A DNA stretch of 15,597 nucleotides, taken from Promethearchaeota archaeon (GTDB taxonomy: Archaea > Asgardarchaeota > Lokiarchaeia > Sigynarchaeales > SOKP01). The notes beneath the pieces are model-generated. The model was not told the origin of the DNA. It worked only from the letters and a program-made list of their open reading frames with translations, and did not search any database. The translations under genes were made by a program, and so were the position numbers. Numbering within the stretch: position 1 is the first letter of the stretch; the number at the start of each line of letters is the position of its first letter. Of this stretch, positions 6,050-11,485 are shown piece by piece. The DNA lies in assembly GCA_014729315.1 (NCBI GenBank), contig WJKD01000338.1, positions 1 through 15,597 on the forward strand. Direction: 5' to 3'.

Positions 6050-6794
6050 ATGATGGAATTAAAAGATGAGGAACACATTGCAGGTGGCAGTAAGATACGG
6101 AGCATCATCCTCGGGCTAATCTAAGTGAAAGTCTTTCTCTTAGGGCTTACACGATGGCTTGATATCCGTATTTACTCTTTTAGTTGGCGTTGCTGCGGCA
6201 ACTTTAATCTCAACGGGAGATAATTCGATCGTAATCTTAACTGGTGTTGCTGCCATGGTTTCTGGGGCCGTGAGTATGGGTTTAGGAGAATATATCTCAT
6301 CTAAATCAGAAGTAAAATACATAGAAAACGAGATTAAACGAGAAAAAGCAGAGATTGACTTATTTCCTGAAGAGGAAAAAGAGGAGGTAAGAATGATATT
6401 TCAGAATATGGGATTCGAAGGAGATGCTCTAGATCAAGCCGTTGATACAATCACGAAAGATAAGCAAACATGGATTGATTTTCTGATGAAAAGCGAACTT
6501 GGACTTGAAGAGCCGGAAAATCCAATTACAGGCGCAATACTTACGTTTTTTTCTTTTATTTTCGGAGCTTTTATCTCTTTAGCGCCCTATTTTATAAATC
6601 TGGGCTACATTTCTTTAATAATCTCTTCGGTCATTTCATTTGGTATGCTAGCTTTTGTAGGTGCTCTAAAAACTCGAATTACGGGAGAAGCTAAAAAAAA
6701 AGGGGCTTTCGAAATGGTAATTATTGGAGCTATAGCCTTCGTTTGTTCTTACGGCATAGGATTATGGCTTGAACAACTACTTAAAACATTCTAA
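6050..6794 (+). CDS. VIT1/CCC1-family Fe/Mn transporter, interrupted by a 31-nt segment
   Basis: VIT1/CCC1 transporters move Fe2+ or Mn2+ out of the cytosol. The family begins with H..GG...R..ilGl.DGl..v. Here 6050-6118 encode a 23-residue N-terminus including HIAGGSKIRSIILGL, then a TAA follows two codons on. At 6150, in another frame, HDGLISVFTLLVGVAA resumes and runs to the TAA at 6792. Removing 6119-6149 (31 nt) rejoins the two parts exactly into a 237-residue protein of normal size. The HDG Asp corresponds to the conserved first-helix metal-translocation Asp, and SMGLGEYIS carries the conserved second-helix Met. A Glu-rich cytoplasmic metal-binding segment and three further membrane helices follow. 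Starting at the TTG at 6159 would lose the N-terminus and the Asp, and no ribosome site supports it. The rest of the gene shows no decay. It may be a fresh pseudogene, an assembly error or a gene rescued by RNA processing. Confidence 0.8.
6119..6149 (+). other. 31-nt hairpin segment interrupting the transporter gene (intron-like)
   Basis: The segment contains a symmetric hairpin at 6121-6143: CTAAG pairs with CTTAG, a T-T mismatch follows, GAAA pairs with TTTC, and the loop is GTC. T6120 and G6144 extend the stem as a wobble pair. GGGCT occurs on both sides (6113-6117 and 6143-6147). Stops close both relevant frames (TAA 6122; TGA 6126 and TAG 6141). A helix of GGGC (6113-6116) with GCTT (6145-6148), flanked by TAA (6117-6119) and ACA (6149-6151), resembles the bulge-helix-bulge cut by archaeal splicing endonuclease. 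Standard cuts would remove 30 or 32 nt rather than the 31 needed, and the outer exon helix is weak. Confidence 0.55.
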
Positions 6795-9343: not shown

Positions 9344-11485
9344 TTATTCTTGTCTCCTCGTAAATTTGATTAAATTGTGCTTTGGTTCGTACAAAGTTCC
9401 TTCTTTAACTGCTTCGTCTAGAGCGTTTTTAATAAACTCTTTGTCAAGGTTTTCCTCTAATTCAAGCGTTTGTATTATGCTTTTTTTTTCGAGGGCTCTC
9501 CACTCGTTATCCTCAAAAATTTCTTTAAGTCTATCCATAAGTTGATTTAATTTGTTAATTTTGCTACGAGATTCTCCAACAAATACCCTATCCATGTCAA
9601 TCTTACCTGTTGTCTCGTCATAGCCAATATCGTTCAAGTATCTTTTAAATAACTTAATAATTTCTTCCACATCTTCTTTTGAAACTTTATCTCGGAGTGC
9701 CATTTTCGCATATGCTTCGCTCAATCTTACCAATGCATCGAGATTTCTAGCTAATATCGAAACTATTGCGTCTTCCGAAGTATATTCTCCCCTAAGTTCT
9801 AAGTAAAAATCCTTAATTCTCTCTTTTGCTTCTTCTGTCAAAGACGGTTTACAATTTCTTTTTGCGTGCTTTATGTATTTTTTTAATAAATCACCGGGAA
9901 TAGGTGCAAATGACTCATCATCGTCTGCTTCGTCAATTACTTCAGAATCAGTAATTGTCCCTTTCATAGCATTTTGAAGGATAAATTCAGCCATTTGAGC
10001 GTCTTTAGCTCGATCTGGTTTATCAATAACTACAAAAATGAGATCAAATCGGGATACCAATGAAGGAGGTAAACGAATATTTTGGGTAGGTGTTTTATAG
10101 GGATCGTACCTCCCTGAATGGGGATTAGCTGCTGCGATGATCGCGGTTTCTGATTTTAAAGTTGCGACAATTCCTGCCTTCGCTATACTAACCGTCTGTT
10201 GCTCCATCCCCTCATGCAGAGCAGATCTGTCTGCCGAATCCATTTTGTCAAATTCATCTATAGCTGCGATACCCCCATTTGCTAGCACAATTGCCCCAGC
10301 TTCGAGATTCATTTGACCCGTATCAGAATCTTTGATTACAGCAGCAGTTAATCCAACTGCTGTAGAGCCCTTTCCCGAAGTATACAAACCGCGTGGTGAG
10401 ATTTCTACAGCATTTTTAAGAATCTCGCTCTTTCCGGTACCAGGATCACCCACAAATAAAACATGAATATCACCTCTCTTATATCCTCCTCCAGGTTTTC
10501 TTTTTCTGCTACCGGCAAACAAACTTAACGCACATGCAATTTTTAAATCCTCTCTCCCATAAATAGTAGGAGCAATAGATCTAGCGATTTTTTTTTGAAT
10601 CATTGGTTCCTTTGCTAAGGTTTCAATTTTTTTAATATCTTCTTTTGAGATGTCAATATACTGGTCTGTTTTATCCTCTGGATCTATGAAATTTACATTA
10701 ATAAATGTTTTAAAGAGATTAGAATTATTACTCTTTATTGAATGCGCGATGACAGATTTAAAAACGCCCATAACTTTTAGTCTATCTCCTGGTTTCACGG
10801 TATCAACTAAATCATAAGTTAGGATTGCTTGAACGGATCTTGGAATCCTTCCAGCCGGGAGATCTTCGGGGATTTCTTGAATAGTTATACTCTGCCAATC
10901 GATGAATTCAGATTTTTTAGAGATTAAACGAAAATCAGACTGTTTACTAGCTTTACAGCGTTTATTTATGCAAAATTTCGGCCATTTTATTTTTGATGTT
11001 AGTTGAATAATATCAAACTGAGTTCCACAGTCCATACATTCAAATTTTGCCTTTATTAATTGCGGTCTTATTGCAGAACTGCGAATTAATATACCTTTAA
11101 ACCACACGAGTCTATCGATATGTTTTGAACGTAATCCTCTGATCGGAACGGTTAATGGACTTTTTTCATCTTTAGTAGCTATTCTTACGAAATAATAGTC
11201 ATTTGTTAATAGTCCCCCTTGGAACTTAAGCAAATTTTCAAACGCTTCCACTGCGTCTTCCAAGAGTGTCTCTGGATCTTTTCTGAGCATATCTGCGATT
11301 TGGGGATCAAAAGCAAGTAAGTCTTCGTATAATATTATTAAAGTGTTTCCTCCCTTCGCAAATATATCGTTTATCTGATCTTGATATTTATACACTCCAG
11401 GGGCATCTTGAAATTGCCGATAAAAATCTTCAAATCGTTGGACCTTACGAATTGGAGCGCTAGGGCTGGAAAGAGGTGTCGTCAT
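9344..11485 (-). CDS. mcm: MCM replicative DNA helicase
   Basis: This 713-residue archaeal MCM is the hexameric helicase that unwinds DNA at the replication fork. The N-terminal domain carries a zinc ribbon (C150, C153, C172, C177) and an OB-fold/hairpin region (about 110-270). The AAA+ domain has Walker A GDPGTGKS (346-353), Walker B AAIDEFDKM (407-415), sensor-1 Asn in AAANP (N454) and the arginine finger in SRFD (R479). The C-terminal 70-80 residues look like the usual winged-helix tail. The length is normal, there is no intein, and the catalytic residues are complete. The ATG start with MTTPLSSP is favoured because the next upstream ATG is followed immediately by a stop. A GINS-like gene 3.7 kb away encodes another part of the CMG helicase. 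The gene has its own 173-bp leader, so it is probably transcribed separately from the HEAT gene. Confidence 0.97.
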   Translation of the reverse strand: MTTPLSSPSAPIRKVQRFEDFYRQFQDAPGVYKYQDQINDIFAKGGNTLIILYEDLLAFDPQIADMLRKDPETLLEDAVEAFENLLKFQGGLLTNDYYFVRIATKDEKSPLTVPIRGLRSKHIDRLVWFKGILIRSSAIRPQLIKAKFECMDCGTQFDIIQLTSKIKWPKFCINKRCKASKQSDFRLISKKSEFIDWQSITIQEIPEDLPAGRIPRSVQAILTYDLVDTVKPGDRLKVMGVFKSVIAHSIKSNNSNLFKTFINVNFIDPEDKTDQYIDISKEDIKKIETLAKEPMIQKKIARSIAPTIYGREDLKIACALSLFAGSRKRKPGGGYKRGDIHVLFVGDPGTGKSEILKNAVEISPRGLYTSGKGSTAVGLTAAVIKDSDTGQMNLEAGAIVLANGGIAAIDEFDKMDSADRSALHEGMEQQTVSIAKAGIVATLKSETAIIAAANPHSGRYDPYKTPTQNIRLPPSLVSRFDLIFVVIDKPDRAKDAQMAEFILQNAMKGTITDSEVIDEADDDESFAPIPGDLLKKYIKHAKRNCKPSLTEEAKERIKDFYLELRGEYTSEDAIVSILARNLDALVRLSEAYAKMALRDKVSKEDVEEIIKLFKRYLNDIGYDETTGKIDMDRVFVGESRSKINKLNQLMDRLKEIFEDNEWRALEKKSIIQTLELEENLDKEFIKNALDEAVKEGTLYEPKHNLIKFTRRQE

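Follow-up and report, generated by a model that had tools for sequence, protein, structure and literature searches.

Is the 31-nt segment that splits a VIT1/CCC1 gene in this Lokiarchaeia-like lineage an intron, or does it mark a gene that has recently died? Within the window, by which we mean the whole 15.6-kb stretch of DNA analyzed, VIT1/CCC1 is the broken gene, while the other recognized genes are all open. These six encode a histone-deacetylase-family protein, a Ras-like GTPase, an aldehyde ferredoxin oxidoreductase, a calcineurin-like phosphoesterase, a rubrerythrin, and MCM. Lokiarchaeota/Lokiarchaeia MAGs are the closest relatives that carry a name (30/79 related loci), and the MCM of the window is at most 79% identical to that of 12 Lokiarchaeota/Lokiarchaeia genomes, so that the window most likely belongs to a Lokiarchaeial organism. 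Drawing on sequence comparison and modeled folds, we consider it highly probable that positions 6120-6150 form a relaxed BHB-type pre-mRNA intron of the Lokiarchaeal VIT1/CCC1 gene, which would be removed by EndA and RtcB. A BHB-type mini-intron was the leading idea of the original prediction, and it is the best-supported reading here.

Several features of the window and its relatives stand apart from this question. An open frame at 1331-2122 on the reverse strand encodes 263 aa that are proline-rich in the N-terminal part and glutamine-rich over a long middle stretch, with a C-terminal VVCPNC. The MCM genes of two relatives (G006 and G009; loci L014 and L025) and of locus L027 match in pieces within very long open frames and are intein-like. 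Single-base frame shifts are found in otherwise conserved genes of two relatives (L011 near 6480 on the reverse strand and L026 near 9375 on the forward strand), possibly as sequence errors.

The interruption itself is as originally described: the two halves of VIT1 lie in different frames, which the insert closes with a TAA (6122-6124) and a TAG (6141-6143). Frame 1, from the ATG at 6050, reads MMELKDEEHIAGGSKIRSIILGLI up to the TAA and thus ends in SIILGLI, whereas the second half opens as GLHDGL directly after the TAG and continues to the stop ending at 6794. This second half matches Pfam VIT1 with an E-value of 7e-59; leaving the window's own entry aside, its closest homologue among the 120 matches listed has 75% identity. 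Both stops fall within the palindrome CTAAGTGAAAGTCTTTCTCTTAG at 6121-6143, in which 10/11 positions are complementary, confirming the near-perfect hairpin that had been noted.

When query proteins from related loci are aligned across the interruption, the excess is exactly 31 nt in 49/49 cases, some of these loci overlapping each other. The proposed length is therefore upheld, but the proposed coordinates (6119-6149) are one base off. Among the 120 homologues listed, 118 contain G[LMF]NDG (112 with L, 5 with M, 1 with F), the two exceptions being the window's own fragment and a protein that starts at MNDG (P0042). Deletion of 6120-6150 joins A6119 to AC6151-6152 and yields GLNDGL in a 237-aa protein, restoring an Asn that is present in 118/118 scorable relatives among the matches listed. 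Deletion of 6119-6149 instead gives GLHDGL, with a His that occurs in 0/118 of the same relatives, and so the full-length protein that had been predicted is recovered with its conserved motif only by the shifted cut. On the forward strand, exon 1 would then run from the ATG through base 1 of the Asn codon (6050-6119), the proposed intron would span 6120-6150, and exon 2 would extend from 6151 through the stop codon to 6794, with SIILGLNDGLISVF as the predicted junction peptide of spliced VIT1. The Asp of the motif, which we take to have a role in transport, has an Asp as its counterpart in an alignment with the solved VIT1 chain 6iu3; because the residue preceding it there is Ser, the Asn is a feature of this VIT1 subfamily. 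Two homologues start at or just upstream of the NDG motif (P0042, MNDG..., and P0097, MILGLNDG...). The GGGCT direct repeats reported to flank the segment are present at 6113-6117 and 6143-6147. Their copies are 30 nt apart, however, and they therefore do not constitute an exact 31-nt target-site duplication.

The RNA predicted from this region can place both splice sites in bulges around a 4-bp helix with helices on either side, a relaxed BHB of the form 3-4-4. For 6085-6180, this structure has an energy of -28.9 kcal/mol and ties with the minimum-energy fold (-28.9 kcal/mol); omission of the central helix gives -26.6. The outer helix, interrupted by small internal loops, pairs exon 1 (6086-6113) with exon 2 (6152-6178) and is present in the minimum-energy fold, whereas the central helix is formed by GGCU of exon 1 (6114-6117) and GGCU at the 3' end of the intron (6144-6147). 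Between them, the intron folds into its own hairpin at 6121-6143 (pairs 6121-6130/6134-6143; pair probability of approximately 0.65). The 5' bulge, AA^U at 6118-6120, with the proposed cut at 6119^6120, conforms to a strict test of 3-nt bulges cut after the second base. The 3' bulge, UAC^A at 6148-6151, does not, as it has 4 nt and the proposed cut at 6150^6151 follows the third base rather than the second. The earlier objection that standard BHB cuts would give 30 or 32 nt thus holds to the extent that the 3' bulge is irregular, but a BHB geometry with 31-nt cuts exists and it restores the Asn. The topology we used, in which exon 1 pairs with the 3' end of the intron, recovers the 3-4-3 form in three tRNA introns of related loci.

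The preference for this fold depends on context. The ensemble probability of the core BHB is only 0.18, and its central pairs have probabilities of 0.21-0.30 (6060-6185); in 59-nt and 39-nt contexts a different fold is preferred. Compared with shuffled sequences, the 91-nt fold is unusually stable (z = -3.69, 0/200) and the 141-nt fold is ordinary (z = -0.93, 31/200). A 32-nt, out-of-frame cut also satisfies the BHB geometry, but within the deletions scanned, 6120-6150 is the sole frame-restoring cut that both has this geometry and leaves the conserved protein intact. A strict 3-4-3 BHB with an in-frame, 46-nt excision (6098-6143) was rejected, as its energy is -16.0 versus -32.9 and conserved residues are lost. 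A search by hand for a BHB with the central helix between the intron and exon 2, which would have the wrong topology, found no pairing.

The outer helix had been judged weak, and here our analysis leads to the opposite view. With the intron removed and 34 nt taken on each side, the exon-exon duplex reaches -21.4 kcal/mol. Synonymous recodings that follow the codon usage seen in seven genes of the window average -8.7 (sd 2.7), and 0/5000 are as strong; by a second measure, 1/2000 is. Nor does any of 28 distinct relatives match it (mean -9.8, minimum -16.5), and several of the codons that form the helix are rare among them, CTC occurring in 1 and CGG, GGC, and TCC in 3 each. The BHB geometry arises in 826 of 100,000 shuffled introns, and when the real intron is placed at 9865 other coding positions, the geometry is found at 52, a duplex as strong at 15, and both at 0. 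Because the geometry limits were set after the structure had been seen, the chance figures based on them flatter the fit; the duplex test is independent of these limits.

The main rival is a recent pseudogene, in which a clean 31-nt palindromic insertion, arising by template switching or from a small hairpin element, is never spliced and has disabled VIT1. We regard this as unlikely, though it has several observations on its side: the insert closes both frames, it is absent from every other VIT1 seen, and the family decays in relatives, one of which retains a VIT1 remnant with a 79-aa open frame (G053, L110:3063-3302). What a pseudogene leaves unexplained is the strong exon-exon helix, the BHB geometry at a junction picked out by conservation, and the parallels in rtcB described below. 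The exons themselves also appear unrelaxed. Of 93 exon 2 columns that are invariant in 15 relatives, the window departs from 3, among them the column of the Asn that would be regained by splicing, and the relatives themselves differ at 0-5 such columns in a leave-one-out count. Similarly, the mean pN of the window VIT1 to 30 relatives is 0.214, where the relatives range from 0.177 to 0.258. These values indicate that the VIT1 exons are under purifying selection, which argues against a long-dead gene, although a very recent death would leave no trace of relaxation.

The remaining alternatives are far less probable. An assembly or sequencing error is quite improbable: the window is a single contig, but one would not expect such an error to produce a BHB geometry and leave the exact conserved codon, and the window's other recognized genes are open. 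We give hardly any weight to a programmed translational bypass, in which the ribosome would skip the hairpin, taking off at GGG or CTA and landing at GGC or TTA. A hairpin does lie 3' of where take-off would occur, with similar GGGCT stretches on either side, yet the take-off and landing codons match only in part (GGG/GGC, CTA/TTA), and landing in the second frame gives the His of GLHDG that no scorable relative has. The insert could also be a copy of a small mobile palindromic repeat, as its near-perfect palindrome and clean insertion point might suggest; this too is very hard to credit, as at up to 3 mismatches the palindrome occurs in none of the 83 Lokiarchaeia genomes of relatives and in one copy in the window, although a repeat specific to the host lineage might escape such a comparison. 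The options of a pseudogene, a bypass, and a mobile hairpin had all been raised in the original prediction; each is less likely than an intron. A group I or II self-splicing intron or a member of another Rfam family was rejected, as the window has no Rfam match at gathering thresholds and 31 nt is far too short.

Returning to the BHB-type intron, we infer its cutting and joining and the translation of the spliced product from what the sequences contain: the insertion, a junction fixed by conservation, a fitting fold, and, in relatives, the enzymes and similar inserts in rtcB. In the proposed mechanism, exon 1 and exon 2 would pair as a long stem while the intron folds into its own hairpin, and exon 1 would pair with the 3' end of the intron in a 4-bp helix that puts both splice sites in bulges. 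A two-subunit archaeal EndA would then cut at both sites, and RtcB would ligate the exons to give GLNDGL and the 237-aa transporter.

The enzymes for such a pathway are widespread in relatives. EndA (PF01974) is found in 82/83 Lokiarchaeia genomes, with two matches in 67, three in one, and one in 14, and the RtcB ligase is found in 75/83. Locating the catalytic triad where we presume it to lie in the EndA motifs, we find Tyr, His, and Lys kept in three of eight EndA proteins read, with the His absent in the other five. The Lokiarchaeial EndA pair, with one paralogue that lacks the catalytic His, thus resembles the alpha-beta type. Relaxed BHBs can be substrates of alpha-beta and epsilon enzymes, although one alpha-beta enzyme is described as constrained (PMC6379350, in part). 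ARAGORN identifies 37 tRNAs in 31 loci, 11 of them with an intron. Three of these introns (labeled Pro, Ser, and Gly; lengths of 19 and 28 nt) have a 3-4-3 BHB, one has weak forms only, and seven have no BHB, the placement of the intron by ARAGORN being uncertain in these seven. In three Asgard genomes from Atabeyarchaeia and Freyarchaeia, introns are reported in 92-95% of tRNA genes (PMC11291895, in part).

Comparison of the locus with relatives, which had been suggested as a check, was carried out and found no second VIT1 with an insert. VIT1 is detected in 70/227 Asgard genomes (E <= 1e-20), and the 30 closest are continuous in a single frame, while some more distant matches are partial. 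A scan for gene-splitting inserts of 10-200 nt over 75 partly overlapping loci (585 kb) returns only that of the window, a second row being an antisense frame at the same place; a stricter version of the scan overlooked the window's own case. Nothing was found in viral contigs or in a contig scan with a single protein query. In Lokiarchaeial cbf5, no stop occurs within the TruB_N matches of 80/83 genomes, the other three having no match.

Inserts of a similar kind are found in rtcB. Among 227 Asgard genomes searched, 207 bear rtcB, and at least 7 of these have an insert of 29 or 30 nt at one of two sites. At GVGY^DINCGVR, two genomes carry nearly identical 29-nt inserts (G035, L162; G067, L163 on the reverse strand). 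The predicted fold has a central helix of UUGG/CCAA and a 9-bp intron hairpin. Its bulges are AU^A and either AC^A or AA^A, and cutting each behind its second base would restore RtcB exactly, although no more than 1-2 bp of outer helix adjoin. The duplex of G035 (-20.3) beats those of 12 other rows, whereas that of G067 (-16.1) does not beat their best (-16.3). At LPD^AHQGYGF, five genomes (G081, L166; G162, L170; G160, L172; G161, L173; G159, L186) carry 30-nt inserts, each with an in-frame stop. Their sequences are divergent, but the central helix (CCCG/CGGG, or CCC/GGG in G081 and G162) and the outer helix are largely kept, and cuts at AY^N and AA^G would restore D-A-H. These predicted folds are irregular: on the 3' side, 8 nt stay unpaired ahead of the outer helix, and the intron hairpin of G160 is not contiguous with the 5' bulge. 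The exon-exon duplexes of this group (-16.7 to -22.6) compare with a mean of -10.8 and a minimum of -16.4 in eight insert-free genes, and their strength is reached by 3 to 30 of 3000 synonymous recodings. In G160 and G161, one outer pair has changed on both sides from C-G to U-A. Pairing holds in 87.5% of cells versus 36-46% when slid; covariation across the five inserts is not clearly above that of shuffles (53/500 reach it).

A split of rtcB by approximately 1.5 kb near profile position 50 in G091 and G111-G115 (L177-L180, L187, L193, and L195-L199) was rejected as an intron, as it lies within one long open frame and is intein-like instead. In G116 (L175), one in-frame TAA lies inside an otherwise full rtcB match. 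Neither G116 nor G098 gave a match in the rtcB motif search.

Taken with the window, the rtcB inserts lead us to favor, with some reservation, the view that Asgard archaea repeatedly gain and keep tiny BHB introns in protein genes, removed by the tRNA pathway, and that in some lineages rtcB itself is interrupted, such that production of the splicing ligase would depend on splicing. If true, this would be a self-referential splicing circuit in the closest relatives of eukaryotes, and the rtcB case could be autoregulatory. The VIT1 insert is of interest because hardly any introns are known in archaeal protein genes and because the rtcB of some relatives has similar ones. With further host genes in the archaea nearest eukaryotes, mRNA splicing by tRNA enzymes could no longer be regarded as a crenarchaeal oddity, and such introns would account for some seemingly broken genes in archaeal annotations.

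Among the closest parallels to the VIT1 candidate are the rtcB inserts, which also close the frame or contain an in-frame stop inside a conserved motif and whose removal by BHB-like cuts would restore the protein; they differ in gene, in their two sites, and in having an outer helix of 1-2 bp or an 8-nt 3' stretch. Pre-tRNA introns of Lokiarchaeia share the BHB topology, a similar size, and presumably the same enzymes, but the three clear cases are 3-4-3, while the VIT1 candidate is 3-4-4 and lies in an mRNA. XBP1 also has a short mRNA intron (26 nt) that is removed without the spliceosome, with joining by RtcB, although it is cut by IRE1 at two stem-loops and not by a BHB endonuclease (PMC10630183, in part). 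In Haloferax, the HVO_1309 mRNA undergoes BHB processing by EndA, but at a site in the untranslated leader, where no coding frame is restored (PMC7714728, in part). Beside its own HVO_1309 case, the same source gave crenarchaeal cbf5 mRNA in 2020 as the only additional archaeal BHB intron, and an earlier one described introns in other archaeal protein genes as predicted but unconfirmed as of 2009 (PMC2738675, in part). Among the matches listed from open-license literature, judged by titles and the starts of abstracts, none concerns an Asgard mRNA intron or an archaeal rtcB intron. The introns of cbf5 in Desulfurococcales and Sulfolobales are 16-44 nt long, sit one base into the codon of the catalytic Asp, and have BHBs that are mostly unconventional, such relaxed motifs being accepted in print for archaeal mRNA introns (PMC2738675, in part). 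The VIT1 candidate resembles them in being short, in splitting a protein gene behind the first base of a codon that belongs to a conserved motif, in its unconventional BHB, and probably, judging by its relatives, in having a hetero-oligomeric EndA in the organism (for cbf5, PMC2738675, in part). It differs in its gene and lineage, in its 4-nt 3' bulge and long exon-exon helix, and in being predicted from sequence. The kind of intron is therefore the one known from crenarchaeal cbf5, while the host gene and the lineage are, as far as we have searched the literature, new.
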